From Bacillota bacterium (GTDB lineage Bacteria > Bacillota > UBA994): a stretch of DNA of 38,392 nucleotides. The stretch lies in the NCBI GenBank assembly GCA_018333655.1, contig JAGXTJ010000048.1, positions 1-38,392 of the forward strand, read 5' to 3'. This document shows positions 1-9,574 of this stretch, piece after piece (position 1 is the stretch's first letter; each line of letters starts with the position of its first letter). The translations under genes were made by a program, and so were the position numbers. The notes under the pieces were generated by a model, which was not told the DNA's origin, searched no databases, and was given only the letters and a program-made list of their open reading frames with translations.

Positions 1-908
1 ATTAGACCCGCGAATAGAGCTAGATCTCCTAAGCTGAAGCGGCCATGGATAACTTGGAAGATGACATAAACATAAGCGACGAATGCGCCAATGGCGCTGA
101 TTGCGGAAGTGCAAATCACAACCCACGCGCCCTTAGTGCGGACAGCGTGTTTGGCTTGGAATATTCTGTGGAAGTATGATTGCCAGCGCTTAAGCAATAC
201 GTCATGCAAACTATAGAGTCGAGCTTCTTTAGCATACGTCTCATTTAGAATCATTCTTTCAATCAGGTCCTTGCTTCTTGCATTGCTTACCTGAGATTGC
301 TCTACTTCCCAGCTTTGGTCTTCGATACGCCATTGAAGAACTACTGCCGGCAAAACTGACAGAAATAGCAGAAGCGGCACCCACCAAGATATCCCGAAGG
401 TGAGCATTAGCGCAGGAACGAAGGCGAACACACCCACCATCATGCGCCCTATGCCTGTAGCAAGTTGCCATAAATGCTCGGTGCCGCCTTCAGCGAGTTT
501 GAGGGTGTTTAGGGCATTAGGATTCTCAAATAACGAAAGGTCGTCAAGGCCTGCAACCTTACTCAGCAATTGTCGACGACTCTCCCCGACAATTCGCTCG
601 CGAAGACTGTCGATTGCAAGTCCACGCAGCGTTATAATCGCATCAAGAAGAGAAATAGCCACCGGGAAAGCTAGCATCGCACCTAGCAATAAGTGCATGC
701 CAGCCAAATCGGCTATGGTTCTTATGTTGCTGCCGATCAGTCTCGCGGCCTCGTCAATTACGATCTTGCTGATATAGAGGTGTAATATTGGCCCTGCTCC
801 ATAAAGGAAGTTTAGTGGGAGGAGGATGCTTACTTCCTTTGGTGCCGCTTGACCAATCAATAACAATGCTCGCTTTACTGCTACTAACTTGGGTAGTGCA
901 TTTATCAT
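1..908 (-). CDS. ABC exporter, N-terminal membrane domain (partial, runs off window)
   Basis: The minus strand is open from an ATG at 908 to the window edge, giving about 302 residues with no stop. The protein has several hydrophobic segments (for example around SILLPLNFLYGAGPILHLYI, the FVPALMLTFGISWWVPLLLF stretch and a segment near the edge). These are separated by a charged cytoplasmic region containing SNARSKDLIERMILNETYAKEARL, a pattern typical of the transmembrane half of type I ABC exporters. The nucleotide-binding domain would lie beyond position 1. An AGGAG sits about 13 bases before the ATG, which is rather far. The gene starts 45 bases after the YcaO gene on the same strand, so it is probably the exporter for that cluster's peptide. 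Family assignment comes from overall architecture; substrate is inferred. Confidence 0.75.
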   Translation of the reverse strand, partial: MINALPKLVAVKRALLLIGQAAPKEVSILLPLNFLYGAGPILHLYISKIVIDEAARLIGSNIRTIADLAGMHLLLGAMLAFPVAISLLDAIITLRGLAIDSLRERIVGESRRQLLSKVAGLDDLSLFENPNALNTLKLAEGGTEHLWQLATGIGRMMVGVFAFVPALMLTFGISWWVPLLLFLSVLPAVVLQWRIEDQSWEVEQSQVSNARSKDLIERMILNETYAKEARLYSLHDVLLKRWQSYFHRIFQAKHAVRTKGAWVVICTSAISAIGAFVAYVYVIFQVIHGRFSLGDLALFAGL

Positions 909-952
909 GATGTTTCCACTTCTCCTAGCTTAGTTATCCGCAAGCCTCTTGG

Positions 953-2245
953 CTAATCAGCCTGATGACCAGACGGACGACGACTCACGTGTAGCGCCGC
1001 TGTACCGCGTTTGTTTGGTAGAATGGCGTTGCCCACCTTAACAAGATGAAAACATTCGAGTCCAGGTATCAAAACATTGAGACAAGTCAAGCCGCTAGGT
1101 GAACTGTAAGAAACGGAGTAAAAAGCTCGAAAACCATTGCCTGCCAGCCTTTTCAGCAGCTCATTAAGGTGGTCCTCAACGCAGCGTGAAACTTGCGTGC
1201 TCTTTATGTTTTCAAACTCGGTAAGTTCCCAGTGCCCCTGGCGAATTAGCTCCCCGATACTTCCTTGTAAGCACTTTTGATATTTGGGGAATCCGTCCAA
1301 TCTTCTTAGAAATGTCGCCTGCTCCTCAAGGTACTTAGATGCGAATTCTTGGTACATATGGTAATCCTGTACCGCTTCCAGCAGAGCTCGCTCTAACGCA
1401 TATTCTCGCGATAGAGAACAACCACAACCTCGATAATTACCAATGCCGTCGGGGCGAGGAAACATGATGCAGAATGTTGGAACACCTAAGTCGCTGGTAA
1501 TGTCAAGACCCACTAGCTGCCCCATAGCCAGTTCGTTAGTTTCATCCCACAAACTTTTTAATTCAGGCGGAAGCGAGTTAGGATCAATTAATCGCAGCGG
1601 CTCAGGCGAACTGCGAAGAAATGTGCGTATATAAAATAAGGATTCCGCATCACGTTCGATGCGCTCATTTAATGCGTGAACTGCAGCTTCAACGAAACTT
1701 GTACCAAAGGCGGTTCCATTGCCGCTAGAATACCTTGATATCTGTGTGTAGTCAAACTTATCGTTGGGTAATCTGGCATCAAAGTAATCTGGGACAGTGA
1801 GGATTAGAGGATGCAGAATTCCTTGGGCGGTATCAAAACTCTGAAATGCTCGACACGGCAGTTCTCTATCCGGATGATGGCGAAGCAAAAGTTCGACGGC
1901 CTTATCATTAACTAAGGTGTCAATGCATGGCAATTGACGTACGTTTGACCAGGCTATCTGATCCCCTAATTTTAAGTGAGGGCCACATATAGGTCTACTA
2001 AGATAGTGTTCAAGTGCCTCATAAATTGCGCTGACTTTGGATTGTATTCCAATCCCTTTGCCGAGTCCATCTGATAAGTAGTTGCCATTTTGGTCATATA
2101 AATAACAACACGATGTAACTAGCCTCTCGCCGTATGTATGTATTTTCACTCGGTAACGTAGTAATTCCAACTCAGAATAGGCCAGCTCAAGTGCTTGGTC
2201 AGGCGAACAAGCTCGCCCTGGGATCTGTTGGCAAACCTCATTCAT
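953..2245 (-). CDS. YcaO-family peptide-modifying enzyme (putative RiPP cyclodehydratase or thioamidase)
   Basis: A 430-residue protein carrying the YcaO ATP-binding signature in order: GKGIG at residues 62-66 followed by EALEHY (76-81), SSGNGTAFG (173-181) followed by NERIERDA (193-200), and GCGCS (273-277) followed by E290 and Q293. These match the Mg-ATP binding segments of YcaO enzymes, which activate peptide backbone amides to make azolines, thioamides or amidines. The C-terminus lacks the PxPxP ending of classical azoline cyclodehydratases, and no E1-like partner gene is visible, although one could lie left of the window. An excellent GAAGGAGGT precedes the ATG at 2245. It sits between a 39-codon peptide ORF and an ABC exporter on the same strand, which supports a RiPP locus. 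The exact chemistry is not deducible. Confidence 0.88.
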   Translation of the reverse strand: MNEVCQQIPGRACSPDQALELAYSELELLRYRVKIHTYGERLVTSCCYLYDQNGNYLSDGLGKGIGIQSKVSAIYEALEHYLSRPICGPHLKLGDQIAWSNVRQLPCIDTLVNDKAVELLLRHHPDRELPCRAFQSFDTAQGILHPLILTVPDYFDARLPNDKFDYTQISRYSSGNGTAFGTSFVEAAVHALNERIERDAESLFYIRTFLRSSPEPLRLIDPNSLPPELKSLWDETNELAMGQLVGLDITSDLGVPTFCIMFPRPDGIGNYRGCGCSLSREYALERALLEAVQDYHMYQEFASKYLEEQATFLRRLDGFPKYQKCLQGSIGELIRQGHWELTEFENIKSTQVSRCVEDHLNELLKRLAGNGFRAFYSVSYSSPSGLTCLNVLIPGLECFHLVKVGNAILPNKRGTAALHVSRRPSGHQAD

Positions 2246-2401
2246 AGCTCTACCTCCTTCTTCGCCTTTTCGGGAGTGTGATTACGCGGCTAGTTCAAGG
2301 GTGGTTAAATTATTCCGGGTCCGGCATAGTTGTCGATAGTTAACGCACTTGTCTTTCCACAGATTTTAACGCATACTACGTTAGTATTACATGAATGGTA
2401 A

Positions 2402-2446
2402 AGACGTCCCCTTGTGGTGAATTTCACAGATTCACCGGAGACGTCT
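2402..2446. repeat. Bulged inverted repeat between peptide ORF and YcaO gene
   Basis: An inner hairpin pairs GGTGAAT (2416-2422) with ATTCACC (2430-2436) around a 7-base loop. An outer pair AGACGTC (2402-2408) with GACGTCT (2440-2446) encloses it, with only one mismatch and a 4-base bulge between the two stems. Read on the minus strand it ends in GACGTCTTT with only a short T-run, so it may be a weak attenuator or RNA-processing element between the peptide gene and ycaO rather than a full terminator. The 285-base gap (2246-2530) holds no convincing ORF. It also contains a small TAACG/CGTTA inverted repeat near 2367-2382. Confidence 0.6.
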
Positions 2447-2530
2447 CCCAAACAGCATCTTAAATGTAAAACATTCTCGCTGATTGAAGAGTTTTTCCGG
2501 TCTTTTACTTTTGGCTAAGGATCCGTCCCC

Positions 2531-2650
2531 TTAAGCGACCAAATCAAGGCTGTTTAATGCAACCAATTCTTCAACTTCATCTTCAAAATAGCAGCTGAAT
2601 CCCTCAAACGGTGTTGCCTTTACACTTATTTCGGTGCTCGCTTTCCCCAT
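2531..2650 (-). CDS. Small peptide, candidate RiPP precursor for the YcaO cluster
   Basis: A 39-residue ORF starting MGKASTEISVKATP and ending ALNSLDLVA. It has one of the best ribosome sites in the region, GGGAGGTGAAAAAG directly before the ATG at 2650. The N-terminal half is Ser/Thr-rich with one Cys (residue 20, in FSCYF). The C-terminal half is acidic and amphipathic (EDEVEELVAL). It lies on the same strand as, and first in line before, the YcaO gene and ABC exporter. Strong translation, short length and position match a modified-peptide precursor. Which half is leader, core or follower is unclear; an N-terminal core with an acidic C-terminal follower, as known for bottromycin, is one possibility. 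I recognise no homologous family. Confidence 0.55.
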   Translation of the reverse strand: MGKASTEISVKATPFEGFSCYFEDEVEELVALNSLDLVA

Positions 2651-2915: not shown

Positions 2916-3140
2916 TTAGAGGGCGGTTACACGGCGTTCAACCCCTGTTTCTCTTGAGGGCGCAGGGAGAGAATTTTTACTAGGAGGAGGAAGTGGAGAG
3001 GGACAGGGGTCATTAAATGGGGCGGTAAGAGTGGCCGTCCCTTCATGAGTCGCACTTGCGCGGGCTGTAGGACCTAGTGAAGAGGCAGACATTGTCGTTA
3101 CAAGGCAGAGAAGGCTGAGCAGAGCAAGGCAGTTTTTCAA
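2916..3140 (-). CDS. Small putative secreted protein, possible pro-peptide
   Basis: A 74-residue ORF starting at TTG (3140) with GGAGGG six bases upstream. The N-terminus (KNCLALLSLLCLVTTMSAS) is a convincing signal peptide with an Ala-rich cleavage region near ARASA. The mature part is short and rich in Pro, Ser and Thr (DPCPSPLPPPSKNSLPAPS). It is divergent from the HTH-TPR regulator that starts 158 bases away. In RRNPP systems a small secreted pro-peptide is often encoded next to its cytoplasmic TPR receptor, so this could be a signalling precursor. Function is inferred from context only. The TTG start and low-complexity mature region leave room for doubt that it is a gene. Confidence 0.45.
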   Translation of the reverse strand: MKNCLALLSLLCLVTTMSASSLGPTARASATHEGTATLTAPFNDPCPSPLPPPSKNSLPAPSRETGVERRVTAL

Positions 3141-3143
3141 TTG

Positions 3144-3236
3144 CTACCCTCCATCCATACAATTTTTGCATGACTCTTCTAGCAACTCCATGATATACTC
3201 ATCACAGCATGTGGCACAAGGACAATATTGTGGCAT
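3144..3236 (-). CDS. Cys-rich micro-ORF (doubtful)
   Basis: A 30-codon reading frame from ATG at 3236 that begins MPQYCPCATCCDEY and ends ESCKNCMDGG. It holds six cysteines in a CxC-x2-CC then CxxC arrangement. It ends four bases before the TTG of the secreted 74-residue ORF, whose ribosome site lies inside its last codons, so the two could be translationally coupled. No ribosome site is seen before its own ATG, and the frame occupies what should be the regulator promoter region. It may be chance. Confidence 0.2.
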   Translation of the reverse strand: MPQYCPCATCCDEYIMELLEESCKNCMDGG

Positions 3237-3298
3237 GGATGACACAGCTTCAATTTACGGAACAGGAAGATTCAGTTTAGGATGGGCGGTGTGGAGCA

Positions 3299-4594
3299 GT
3301 GGTAGGGGCGAAGATTCGCAAAGCGCGCAAAGAAGCGGGACTAACCCAGGCCCAACTAGCGGGGACCGAGCTATCCCGCTCTTTGATTAGCGAGATTGAG
3401 CGCAATAAGCGCAACCTGTCAACTGCGACACTGCATATACTGGCGCAAAAGCTCAATAAGCCGCTGGAGTATTTCGTGGTTGAGTGGAGAGTGTCAGGCG
3501 CCGAGAGGGCCCTGCTGCTCATCAACCACGCTCACGCCTGTATCGAGATCGGCGATAGTGAGGGCATCCGACTAGCCCTAGATGCGCTGAAAGGGTTCGG
3601 AGCTTTGCCAGATGACGTTAAAGCTCGTATGCATGAGCTGATAGCGTGGCATGAGCAAAAGGAGGGTAGGCCCCTAGGTGCCGTTAACCATGCGCTGACG
3701 GCTGAAGTGCTGTTTGCGGCGGAGGGGCGGCGCGACAAGCAGTGGTACTGCTGCTATCTCGCAGCACACGCAACCTATGCCTCAGGCTTGTACTCGCAGG
3801 CGCTGGAGATGTGCAACAAGGCGCTTGGCATATTTAGAAGTGCAGAAGACATGCCAAGTAAACGACAACTAACGCTGTATCTGCTCGGAAGCATTTACTT
3901 CGCGCTTGGCAAGATTGAATCGGCGCAAAAGTGCTATACAGAGATTGCAGCCTCTGACGGCGAGGAAGACAAGCGGAGCTTGCTTCAGGCCTACCACGGT
4001 AAAGCCATATGTGCACAACAGCTAGGAAATACCGTAGAGGCGCTCAGGTGGGCCGAACAAGCCGCGCTACAGGCAGAGCAGTGCCGCGATATGGAGTTTT
4101 ACGCCTCCTCGTTGATCACTTGGGGGTCGTGCCTTGTTAAAATGGGGCATAACGATAAGGCCCTAGCAGTGCTGTGGAACATTGACAATGACTCTCGTTT
4201 TGCCGCTCACATTGCGCACACCGCGCGCCGAGAGCTTCTTCTTTGCCTAGCCGAACAAGACCCCTACCCAGGGGTGATATGTATTTCGCTAGAGCAGTAT
4301 CTGTCGGCCGTGCTCTTAGTCGCACCCAAGCAGGGGGGTTATGAAGACACAAAGACGCAGTGGGCAGTGGCTAAAAGCCGGCTAAGGAGGGCTGCGAAGG
4401 GCGACATTGTGTCCGTGATACAACAGTTCGCTTCACTTTTTCTTGCCCTAAGCCACAGTGCCCGCGCGGCAGAAGTGCTGGCCTATGGGGCATCCCTAAT
4501 GGAGCGGAATAACGACTCTCACGCGGCCTACACCCTGCTGAAAGAAGCATATAGGTTACGCAGGGATACCGCCGTCGAAGTGGGATCCCTATAG
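3299..4594 (+). CDS. HTH-XRE plus TPR transcriptional regulator (RRNPP-like)
   Basis: A 431-residue protein. Residues 1-60 form an XRE-type helix-turn-helix (AKIRKARKEAGLTQAQLAG, then SRSLISEIERNKRNLS, then LHILAQKLNKPLEYF). The rest is a series of TPR-like helical pairs (for example HATYASGLYSQALEMCNKAL, LYLLGSIYFALGKIESAQKC, LQAYHGKAICAQQLGNTVEA). This is the layout of peptide-sensing regulators such as PlcR, NprR and AimR. The GTG start at 3299 places the HTH at the N-terminus; the ribosome site is weak (TGGAG). It is divergent from the small secreted ORF and the YcaO cluster, so it may control them. It is a paralogue of the frameshifted regulator at 5923, sharing the HTH and the C-terminal AxxVLxxGAxLxE segment. 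The ligand is unknown. Confidence 0.8.
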   Translation: MVGAKIRKARKEAGLTQAQLAGTELSRSLISEIERNKRNLSTATLHILAQKLNKPLEYFVVEWRVSGAERALLLINHAHACIEIGDSEGIRLALDALKGFGALPDDVKARMHELIAWHEQKEGRPLGAVNHALTAEVLFAAEGRRDKQWYCCYLAAHATYASGLYSQALEMCNKALGIFRSAEDMPSKRQLTLYLLGSIYFALGKIESAQKCYTEIAASDGEEDKRSLLQAYHGKAICAQQLGNTVEALRWAEQAALQAEQCRDMEFYASSLITWGSCLVKMGHNDKALAVLWNIDNDSRFAAHIAHTARRELLLCLAEQDPYPGVICISLEQYLSAVLLVAPKQGGYEDTKTQWAVAKSRLRRAAKGDIVSVIQQFASLFLALSHSARAAEVLAYGASLMERNNDSHAAYTLLKEAYRLRRDTAVEVGSL

Positions 4595-5845: not shown

Positions 5846-5922
5846 CTACCTAAGTTGTCTGTACAGGGTGAGGCCGCAAAGTTGGTAGTACTCCGGGCAT
5901 AACAGGTTTAGGAGGTGGGTTC

Positions 5923-6823
5923 ATGGTTGGCCTTCGCATCAAACAGGTCAGAATATCATTGGGACTGTCTCAGGCCGGTAGCAGGCGAAGTGCTCTCTCG
6001 TTCGTACATAGGAGCCGTAGAAAGAGGCAGGGTCAATCCTACACTGGATAAGCTCAAATTGATTGCTGAACGGTTAGGCAAGCCTGTTTCGTTCTTTGTG
6101 CCAGACGAGCAGGAGCTCCTGTCTGACAGGTTAGAGGCAATGCTTAACCAGGCCAGGGCCTTAGTAGGGGCTAAAGAATGGACACAGGCGAAGGCTCTGT
6201 TTGACGAGTGTCAGCAAGCTTGCAGTCAGGTAGTTCGTCCCTGTGTTCGCGCACTCTATTTGGAGGTCAGGGCTGAGATTGAGCTTTACGGGGCGGGCGT
6301 GCTTAAGGCTGTAGATTCCTACAAGGCAGCAGCACAAGCCTATAAGGATGCCAGTCTGACAGCTTCAGCATGGAAGTGCCTGTACACCTCAGCTATGCAA
6401 CTGTATTTGGCAAACCATGTAAGTTACGCGAGCTTTGTGGCGCTGAAAACTCTAGAAACCATTGAACCTGACGAGGGTCTTGTCGATGAACTGGCGAAGA
6501 CCCACTATCTGATAGGATGTTGCTACGCAGCCCTCGGTAATAGCACCGGCGCAAGCGAGCATTTTTCACAGGAAGACGTCGAGGAGTGGGAGCATTTAAA
6601 AGACAATTGGGCTATAACCAAGTGTTCATTACTGCGAAACCCTGACGAAGTAATGAAAGTAGTGTCCCTCTTTTCCCAGTCATTCATTAAGCTTGCCCGC
6701 TACAGGGATGCTGCCGATGTACTGAGTTTTGGTGCTGAACTGCTAGAGCAGCAGGGCCGACCCAAGGAGGCCCTTGAGCTGATGAAAGCTGCCTGCGACC
6801 TGTATAAGAGAAGACCACAGTAG
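5923..6823 (+). pseudogene. Frameshifted HTH-XRE plus TPR regulator, paralogue of the 3299 regulator
   Basis: The natural start is ATG 5923, with AGGAGGT six bases upstream, reading MVGLRIKQVRISLGLSQA. The frame then fails near 5975-5985, and the neighbouring frame continues VAGEVLSRSYIGAVERGRVN and on through about 280 residues of TPR-like helices to the stop at 6821-6823. Aligned to the 3299 regulator (LTQAQLAG..LSRSLISEIERN), the junction looks like a loss of two bases inside the HTH. The body is intact over the whole TPR region. The gene is either recently inactivated, rescued by recoding, or affected by a sequencing error. Downstream is a 46-residue signal-peptide-like ORF. Confidence 0.75.
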
Positions 6824-7182: not shown

Positions 7183-7912
7183 TTGCACAAGCGCACTGTC
7201 GTGGGTGTCCTCGTCGTTTGTCTGGTAGCAGTAATGTTTGGTTCTTTGGCTTTCGCATCGTCCAGCCCACAGCCTCAAGATTATACTCCCTATAGAGAGT
7301 AATTGGCTATCATATCAAGCTGACAGGGTCAGCTTCCTAGATGAGCTTAACCGCTTCACACCAGAAACTCGTTTAAAGGCTCTGGTTATGCTTGAAGACT
7401 ACACAGACATGCAAATGTTAAACACCATGCTAGAACCCGAAACACACCGACTCTTTTACCTGCGGGCGGGGATTCCCGCTTTGCTGGCGGGAAGGACCAT
7501 CTTGGAGCACTTCACATTTTGCGCAGGCGACGAGCAGTTTACTGGCCATCTTTGCACAGATAAGGTCATAGAGAAGTTCATAAACATGATTCTCCCGAAG
7601 AACATTGAAACATGTGAACAGGAGCTTATGAACATTCGGCGGGCGCTTGCAAAAGAGAACGGACTTGAGAGTAAGGCTATCCTGACTAAGCAGGAAAATG
7701 ACCTTGTCCAGGCCATTGACATCCTCAGAAAACACGGAAAAACGGAGGTTCGAGTATACGCGATTGGTATAGAGGCTAGAGTGAAAGACTTGTTCGAACT
7801 CCAGAGTTAACCAGGAATTGATTTGGTAGATGTTGCTGCAGTACGGGGTACTGTTGACATCAGATTGACAAACCCTGTGTTTTCGCCATTACGCCCAGAG
7901 GAACGCAGATAG
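7183..7912 (+). pseudogene. Secreted protein of unknown function, broken by two frameshifts
   Basis: A TTG at 7183, with GAGGTG upstream, begins HKRTVVGVLVVCLVAVMFGS then LAFASS, a clear signal peptide with an AFA cleavage site; this frame stops at 7300-7302. The body resumes in the next frame (ESNWLSYQADRVSFLDELNR through VRVYAIGIEARVKDLFELQS, stop at about 7808-7810). A third frame then reads GIDLVDVAAVRGTVDIRLTN to a TAG at 7910-7912. The continuity implies an original protein of about 240 residues, now inactivated twice. I do not recognise the family. The first 39 codons could alternatively be read as a stand-alone pheromone-like peptide, but the coding body after it argues for a pseudogene. 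Confidence 0.6.
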
Positions 7913-8162: not shown

Positions 8163-8471
8163 ATGAAGATTAAAGGGATTACTCTTCGTCGATGGCTTAT
8201 AGTCATTGTTCTGATGATTGTAGTGGTGTTTCTAGGCTTTGGCCAATTCGCGACATTCATGATGCGGACGGCCGAGTCGAACAGCTACGTTGCGGAGCGA
8301 TATCTGGTTGAAAACTACCCCGGGTTTTCCCCAACAGGGCGAAATTTCGGGCCTGTCACTTGGAGGAAATCCTCGCACATTTTTCTAGGATCAATGGACA
8401 GCAGTGAAGTGGAGATTGAGATTGTGGTCGACCGGGGCAGGGCTCAATTAAAGGAAATACGTCGTAAGTAA
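8163..8471 (+). CDS. Small membrane-anchored protein, unknown function
   Basis: A 102-residue protein with AAGGGGGTG just before the ATG. Residues 10-30 (RRWLIVIVLMIVVVFLGFGQ) form one membrane segment preceded by a basic stretch, so the C-terminal part likely faces outside. The outer part has EIEIVVDRGRAQLKEIRRK at its end, resembling a short beta-rich domain. No family is recognised. The gene appears intact in a region where most neighbours are broken. Its 3' end overlaps the antisense ABC ATPase remnant by 24 bases. Confidence 0.55.
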   Translation: MKIKGITLRRWLIVIVLMIVVVFLGFGQFATFMMRTAESNSYVAERYLVENYPGFSPTGRNFGPVTWRKSSHIFLGSMDSSEVEIEIVVDRGRAQLKEIRRK

Positions 8472-8829
8472 CACCCCAAACTCGGGGATGCCAAACGCAC
8501 GCAGCGGAAGGTTCTGCTCTCCCCTTCTGATACAAGCATAGCACGGATTCTGGTTGTCCAGCAAAAGGGGTATAGGGCATATCTCAAGTATCCTATGCTC
8601 GCTTTGTGGATCTATGGCCGCTGTTGATTCATCGAGCAGCACGAGTTCGGCTTTGGTGTGGCGCAGCAGCGCACGCGCTATGGCGATTTTTTGCCATTCT
8701 CCGACGGATAGGTCGGTTCCCTGTTCAAGCATTTTGCTAAGTGGTGTATCCTAGGCCAAGGGGTAGCTCTGCGATGTCGAGACCGACCTCCTGAGCTACT
8801 AGCCACAATGTACTATCGTATGGCTAAGG
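8448..8829 (-). pseudogene. ABC-transporter ATPase fragment
   Basis: On the minus strand, from the ATG at 8732, the protein reads MLEQGTDLSVGEWQKIAIAR, then LVLLDESTAAIDP: the ABC signature LSVGEWQ and the Walker B with catalytic Glu replaced in the usual way (LLDES). Upstream in another frame is LWLVAQEVGLDIAELPLG, the segment that precedes the signature in exporters of this type. The Walker A half is missing and the C-terminus runs into unrelated residues, so this is a relic. LSVGEWQKIAIARA-type ATPases often belong to peptide exporters, so it may be a lost copy of the exporter type seen at 1-908. Confidence 0.75.
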
Positions 8830-9008: not shown

Positions 9009-9251
9009 ATGGATACCGCAAAAGTGGCAATCAGTATCAACAAAGAGATTCTTAAGAAATTGGATAATCTCGTAAAGGACCATGTTTTCCCAAGCCGAAG
9101 CCGGGCAATTCAAGAGGCAGTGGAAGAGAAGCTTAACCGAATGCAACGAACTCGGCTTGCTGAACAATGTGCCAAATTGCATCCAGTACACGAACAACAA
9201 TTGGCTGAAGAAGGGTTGTCTCTCGAGGTGGATAAATGGCCCGCATACTAA
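9009..9251 (+). CDS. Ribbon-helix-helix antitoxin of a MazF-type pair
   Basis: An 80-residue protein from ATG 9009, with GGAGGTGAAGGAAGA directly upstream; longer in-frame starts have no ribosome site. The N-terminus (AKVAISINKEILKKLDNLVK, then SRSRAIQEAVEEKL) is a CopG/MetJ-like ribbon-helix-helix fold that dimerises and binds DNA. The C-terminal tail (HPVHEQQLAEEGLSLEVDKW) would wrap the toxin. The stop overlaps the toxin start by 16 bases, so translation is coupled. Such operons are normally repressed by the antitoxin-toxin complex. Confidence 0.85.
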   Translation: MDTAKVAISINKEILKKLDNLVKDHVFPSRSRAIQEAVEEKLNRMQRTRLAEQCAKLHPVHEQQLAEEGLSLEVDKWPAY

Positions 9252-9574
9252 GAGGTGAGATCCGGTGGGCTGACCTCAATCCAGTTCGTGGTCATGGGCA
9301 GGGTGGAATGCGCCCGGTGGTTATTATCAGTCAAGATGTCTTCAACGAACGTTCAGGCACTGTAATCGCCATGGCTATAACGAGCCAAGCGCAGAGAGCG
9401 GGATTTCCATTAACGCTTGATCTAGAATCAACAAACCTTCCCAAGCGATCATGGGTGAAAATCAGTCAAGTTCGTACGCTATCAGATGAGCGAATAGGGC
9501 ATGTTATTGAGAAACTGCCTCCTGAAACGATGAACCAATTGATAGAAGGGCTAAACGAAATCGTGGGTGGCTAG
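9236..9574 (+). CDS. mazF: MazF/PemK-family endoribonuclease toxin
   Basis: A 112-residue protein with the MazF/PemK pattern: an N-terminal RGEIRWADLNPVRGHGQGGM followed by RPVVIISQDVFNERSGTVIA, then the LPKRSWVKISQVRTLSDERI segment. The RPVVI(I/V)S and SxVxxxQxRTxxxxR motifs carry the conserved Arg and Ser/Thr residues of the active site. Full length for the family (about 110). It cleaves single-stranded RNA at short sequence motifs when freed from the antitoxin. The ATG at 9236 lies inside the antitoxin gene. It is the last intact gene of the accessory region. Confidence 0.92.
   Translation: MARILRGEIRWADLNPVRGHGQGGMRPVVIISQDVFNERSGTVIAMAITSQAQRAGFPLTLDLESTNLPKRSWVKISQVRTLSDERIGHVIEKLPPETMNQLIEGLNEIVGG

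Follow-up and report, generated by a model that had tools for sequence, protein, structure and literature searches.

YcaO enzymes use ATP to activate backbone amides. Few natural YcaO systems that form amidines have been characterised, and most stand-alone YcaOs are without a known function (PMC8442711). In the bottromycin pathway, the precursor begins with MG..., the YcaO acts without an E1-like cyclodehydratase and the initiator Met has to be removed; the macrocyclic amidine is proposed to arise by attack of Gly1 on the Val4-Val5 amide, and the evidence indicates a substrate that still bears its follower (PMC5103208).

We analysed a stretch of 38,392 nucleotides from a Bacillota bacterium (contig JAGXTJ010000048.1, here C48), hereafter called the window, which starts at base 1 of its contig. 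At its left end, genes for a small peptide, a YcaO enzyme and an ABC exporter follow one another on the minus strand. This series had been claimed in an earlier note made from the sequence, and it was confirmed by the coordinates, by Pfam for the YcaO and by homology for the exporter. The features are as follows.

2531..2650, minus strand: precursor peptide gene, 39 aa, MGKASTEISVKATPFEGFSCYFEDEVEELVALNSLDLVA, with a near-perfect Shine-Dalgarno sequence; a paralogue lies on contig C25, and Met-Gly peptides adjoin related YcaOs
953..2245, minus strand: stand-alone YcaO amide-activating enzyme, 430 aa, without a PxPxP tail
3..908, minus strand: part of an ABC exporter gene (transmembrane half) that runs off the contig; candidate tail at C32:2-118
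2391..2450, minus strand: RNA stem-loop between the peptide and YcaO genes, -26.7 kcal/mol, z=-4.7
3299..4594, plus strand: divergent HTH-TPR regulator (HTH_3 + TPR in Pfam), candidate regulator of the cassette; homologues near the C25 and C11 loci and elsewhere too

The peptide ORF runs from an ATG at 2650 to a stop at 2531-2533, and its start is preceded by the near-perfect ribosome site GGGAGGTGAAAAAG. As claimed, the peptide has a single Cys (C20), Ser/Thr residues in its N-terminal half and an acidic C-terminal half (net charge -6). The earlier emphasis on the Ser/Thr-rich half holds as a description of composition and can be refined: the conserved end is the extreme N-terminus, Met-Gly, and the acidic C-terminal helix is the probable follower. 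Judged by comparison of loci, the peptide gene is real, because a paralogous peptide precedes a paralogous YcaO on C25 and related YcaOs elsewhere have similar peptides at this place. We also weighed a 48-aa TTG ORF with three Cys (2305-2451) as the precursor instead and rejected it, since it has no ribosome site. Stem-loops between precursor and enzyme genes are a frequent arrangement in RiPP operons. The one observed here is more stable than shuffled sequences, the whole 288-nt intergenic region between peptide and YcaO folds unexceptionally (z=-0.25), and an Rfam search gave no match; it is possibly a partial terminator or a processing stem that sets the peptide:enzyme ratio.

The paralogous locus on C25 consists, in order, of a radical SAM/SPASM protein, an MFS transporter, a 42-aa peptide with a ribosome site (MGKKGSELTKKVSCLDDSIGDRELFFDGELAELEKINGVCNK) and a truncated, frameshifted YcaO that is 55-57% identical to the window YcaO. 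The two peptides are related beyond shuffled sequences (Smith-Waterman shuffle p=0.0007). A frameshifted second copy of the peptide and a short stretch resembling a YcaO remnant lie nearby. Several copies have thus decayed in the lineage of the window genome, and activity in the present strain is therefore not assured. Searches with the window YcaO against 61 relatives and 398 genomes of the phylum found no close member besides the own-genome copies and one remnant in a related genome (G007); a phage search and a profile scan of viral contigs found none, and a peptide profile run over 15 genomes of the class gave credible matches only to the own-genome copies. We also observed that the radical SAM/SPASM and MFS exporter genes directly upstream of the C25 peptide (L009, 9745-12203) recur as a pair in genome G006 (L019, 5219-7786; 49% identity, radical SAM gene frameshifted), where they adjoin a LanC-like RiPP-type locus. 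This recurrence suggests swapping of maturation enzymes.

The nearest YcaOs outside the lineage were sought by tblastn on plasmids, and the upstream sequence was then read for each. A small ORF lies just upstream of every one of them, in Streptomyces (53 aa), Nonomuraea (38 aa), Pantoea (43 aa), three vibrios (40, 39 and 41 aa) and, as a distant case, Mycobacteroides (47 aa). The downstream genes vary: the YcaO is followed by a SagB/ThcOx oxidase in Streptomyces sp. NBC_01707, by a methyltransferase in Pantoea, by an ABC exporter on the plasmids of Vibrio europaeus, V. lentus and Vibrio sp. 16, and, on the Mycobacteroides chelonae plasmid, where the 47-aa ORF is annotated, by a 329-aa protein of unknown type and a transporter annotated as MFS. 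Adjacency of YcaO and ABC exporter thus recurs on three Vibrio plasmids. All peptides read (9/9: window, C25 and the seven plasmid relatives) start with Met-Gly. The window, C25 and Vibrio peptides moreover have MG[KN]xx[ST]E[IL] in common, with cross-pair shuffle p values of 0.0005 to 0.013 over positions 3-9. Only Met-Gly is common to all nine, and the substrate residues may therefore differ between subgroups. For control loci, we turned to the 398 phylum genomes, in which 13 further YcaO genes pass or near the family cut-off; none has a Met-Gly ORF with a ribosome site just upstream on the same strand. As a background for the same loci, family members included, 16% of the ribosome-site ORFs of 25-60 aa start with Met-Gly. 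The exception is L003, a gammaproteobacterial relative from a Baikal MAG, in which no clear Met-Gly ORF was found at the YcaO and a 49-aa ORF containing KKNNEIN overlaps the YcaO start. The L003 YcaO (3112-4296) lies between two similar putative membrane histidine-kinase-like genes, an unusual setting for a YcaO. With a Vibrio peptide as tblastn query, plasmids returned vibrios and one weak unrelated match only. Conservation of the small ORF beside related YcaOs, which the earlier note had set as the test of its proposal, was thus observed, with L003 as the exception. There appears to be a scattered family, from a sporeformer to vibrios and actinobacteria, whose predicted peptides all start with Met-Gly, and this pattern suggests a secreted peptide with a chemically modified front end.

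The window YcaO covers the full Pfam domain (PF02624, E=1.6e-38), with the conserved Glu/Arg residues present and the motifs intact. Its C-terminus reads ...ILPNKRGTAALHVSRRPSGHQAD, so that the PxPxP tail is absent, as had been noted, and the claimed absence of an E1-like partner is borne out: a scan of 30 window proteins showed none, and no TfuA or SagB-type protein either. The enzyme therefore has neither the PxPxP tail nor the E1/Ocin-ThiF partner by which azoline RiPPs (LAP/TOMM) are recognised. NCBIfam gave weak matches, far under the cut-offs, to SagD (score 75 vs 219), to McrA-glycine thioamidation and to the general YcaO domain, and the YcaO is weakly similar to MJ1094. The earlier note had raised a ribosomal or MCR clade as a place where the enzyme might fall; the YcaO_for_S12 model did not match it, and methan_mark_1 scored 47 against a cut-off of 365. 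An AlphaFold model from a two-sequence alignment had a confidence too low for use (pLDDT 39).

A YcaO tree had also been proposed. In a maximum-likelihood tree of these YcaOs together with azoline-type (SagD) and TfuA-type enzymes, those with Met-Gly peptides and that of L003 are united on a single branch (100/98, length 0.98) that is separate from the other two types, which sets the window YcaO on a distinct branch away from azoline types. With midpoint rooting, the nearest outside clade is that of TfuA-associated YcaOs. The Mycobacteroides and L003 sequences form long branches, Mycobacteroides being a distant member.

The exporter fragment (302 aa) comprises the transmembrane half of the protein. 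Pfam assigned it to no family, and no C39 peptidase domain was seen in this half; it shares 52% identity with the corresponding half of a full-length ABC exporter (604 aa), which a genome of the same family encodes directly after a C-terminal YcaO remnant. When the own genome was searched with the 604-aa protein, its C-terminal end matched over 39 aa (72% identity) at C32:2-118, the very start of that contig, and the orientation is the one that the lost tail should have. This is probably the tail of the window exporter. It is followed, as read from sequence, by an IS30-like transposase, a putative UvrD-like helicase, a methyltransferase, RsfS-like, NadD and Obg. In Bacillus, a nadD-rsfS-yqeM block adjoins comEA-comEC-holA. 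The joined order of C32 and C48 would reproduce this neighbourhood, and the exporter, its tail probably opening C32 ahead of the transposase and housekeeping genes, is therefore probably the last cassette gene, with no partner enzyme after it. The leftward extension past position 1 that had been called for was thus made computationally, and partner genes there are unlikely. In G007:C46 (L010, 3361-8200), from a genome of the same family, a C-terminal YcaO remnant is all that is left of the enzyme and is followed by an intact ABC exporter, an MFS gene and a second ABC transporter. At 8583-8771 of the window itself, the relative's exporter has a 63% identical match to its nucleotide-binding domain in a decayed fragment with a stop; by this similarity the fragment is a remnant of another exporter copy.

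The rest of the window is occupied by spore-former housekeeping genes, such as NuoF-like and molybdopterin subunits, ComEC, DNA polymerase III delta, germination protease, SpoIIP, LepA and HrcA-GrpE-DnaK-DnaJ. A second HTH-TPR gene lies at 5915-6823, and the family has about twelve matches in the own genome, some of them fragments; homologues adjoin two other RiPP-type loci of this genome, on C25 and C11, and are present elsewhere as well. At the C11 locus (L077, 1548-6236), a further RiPP-type locus, an HTH-TPR regulator is oriented divergently to genes for an ABC exporter and a SPASM maturase of grasp-with-spasm-like type; a secreted-looking small protein of 97 aa lies between. In the window, small ORFs at 7238-7810 (no match in a Pfam scan) and 8163-8471, both without an assigned family, lie between the HTH-TPR regulators and a MazF-type toxin gene (9236-9574).

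The locus shows the general mark of a RiPP cassette, a conserved gene for a small precursor next to genes for a modifying enzyme and an exporter, and on balance we read peptide, YcaO and exporter as a minimal cassette of three genes. The best overall explanation, by analogy with bottromycin, is a RiPP modified at its N-terminus and carrying a C-terminal follower (probability roughly 0.6). The 39-residue peptide would be translated from its own strong ribosome site, and a housekeeping aminopeptidase would take off the initiator Met and expose Gly. An ordinary aminopeptidase should be able to take off a Met that precedes Gly-Lys or Gly-Asn, so that no dedicated peptidase would be needed, which would explain its absence. 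Met-Gly-Pro is a poor case for such removal (PMC5103208). Guided by the follower, the stand-alone YcaO would then activate a backbone amide near the N-terminus with ATP. That the peptide is the substrate of the adjacent YcaO is very probable from the conserved pairing, and the N-terminus is likely to be the modified end. As to the product, our leading but tentative candidate is an N-terminal amidine that would form as bottromycin's does, the amine of Gly attacking a carbonyl a few residues further along; it is proposed because Met-Gly is the sole common N-terminal feature, no leader stands in front of it and bottromycin provides a precedent. A protease encoded outside the cassette would cut the modified N-terminal piece from the follower, and the ABC transporter would probably export it.

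Were the small ORF not the substrate, the YcaO would have a housekeeping protein as its target, and it would be by chance that Met-Gly ORFs stand upstream. Small ORFs are indeed common, and the peptide is known here from its gene alone; the recurrence of Met-Gly at the same place in several phyla, against 0/13 control loci and the 16% background, and the retention of a related peptide before the decayed YcaO of C25 make chance very improbable. With the peptide as substrate, the YcaO alone might cyclodehydrate its Ser/Thr/Cys residues to oxazolines or thiazolines, the N-terminus being a recognition motif. Ser/Thr occupy positions 5-6 of the window peptide and Ser6 recurs in the C25 and Vibrio peptides, an oxidase of the SagB/ThcOx type adjoins the Streptomyces relative, and the second bottromycin YcaO forms a thiazoline without an E1 partner (PMC8442711). 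We nevertheless hold azolines to be rather unlikely, given the missing tail and E1-like partner, the lack of a dehydrogenase in the window and beside the Vibrio YcaOs, the position in the tree away from SagD, and the fact that no Ser/Thr/Cys position is common to all nine peptides.

Replacement of an amide oxygen by sulfide or ammonia, giving a thioamide or an open-chain backbone amidine as with TfuA-linked YcaOs or ItfB, would fit the nearest outside clade, the weak similarity to the McrA-glycine thioamidation model and MJ1094, and the precedent of ItfB, which makes an amidine at the C-terminal residues of its peptide (PMC10352776). The conserved end here, however, is the N-terminus and not the C-terminus, and no TfuA gene adjoins the Met-Gly YcaOs in the annotation read; we consider this chemistry quite unlikely. 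The peptide may otherwise serve as a signal to which the adjacent HTH-TPR regulator responds (RRNPP-like), with the YcaO maturing a pheromone and not an antibiotic. Genes of this kind stand next to the window cassette, to the C25 locus and to the SPASM-maturase/ABC locus on C11, but the same regulator family occurs on C34 and C23, where no RiPP-type genes were seen, and no such regulator stands beside the plasmid relatives in the annotation read, so that a signalling role seems unlikely. It is compatible with the N-terminally modified RiPP, since it concerns use and not chemistry.

No description of the Met-Gly peptide/YcaO family was found in the open-licence papers searched, and the family is apparently undescribed, in line with the earlier suggestion. 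The presence of a Met-Gly ORF just upstream gives a substrate hypothesis for the YcaOs of this clade in sporeformers, vibrios and actinobacteria, and the cassettes of the window and the vibrios, which have a single modifying enzyme apiece, are compact enough to be studied directly in vitro. A bolder and doubtful extension is a RiPP class spanning several phyla in which a lone YcaO forms an N-terminal (macro)amidine unaided on a leaderless Met-Gly precursor, Met removal by the housekeeping aminopeptidase being the only preparation; if true, the amidine-forming pathway would be smaller than the described ones considered.

Among those, TfuA-associated YcaOs are stand-alone enzymes of the nearest outside clade, but the window cassette has no TfuA, and the small ORFs beside two YcaOs of that clade start otherwise than with Met-Gly. 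ItfB is similar in being a YcaO that forms an amidine on a small peptide. Streptamidine (ami), reported from Actinobacteria and a few Firmicutes, resembles the window locus in its small, poorly annotated peptide near a YcaO, in its ABC exporters and in its product, an N-terminal amidine as proposed here (PMC8442711). It differs in having AmiB (E1/RRE-like), hydrolase, dehydrogenase and iron-transporter genes, none of which is seen with the window cassette, as well as a YcaO tail rich in proline and a leader that has to come off, neither of which is seen here (PMC8442711). We infer the absence of AmiB, itself without a recognised domain, from the fact that the cassette has no further gene. With respect to bottromycin (BtmD/BtmE/BtmF), the precursor HMM NF033414, which matches the bottromycin precursor at 3.7e-34, did not match the window peptide or the five relatives scanned, and beyond Met-Gly none of the peptides resembles the bottromycin precursor convincingly (p=0.27 for the window peptide). 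Bottromycin moreover has two YcaOs against one in the window cassette; the other bottromycin genes, such as BtmI, BtmM and the P450, were not recognised in the cassette or in the rest of the window, and its macrocyclisation also uses the partner BtmI. The systems nevertheless share a precursor that starts with Met-Gly and has no leader and a YcaO without an E1-like cyclodehydratase, and the Met-Gly peptides may also have the same division into an N-terminal core and an acidic C-terminal follower.
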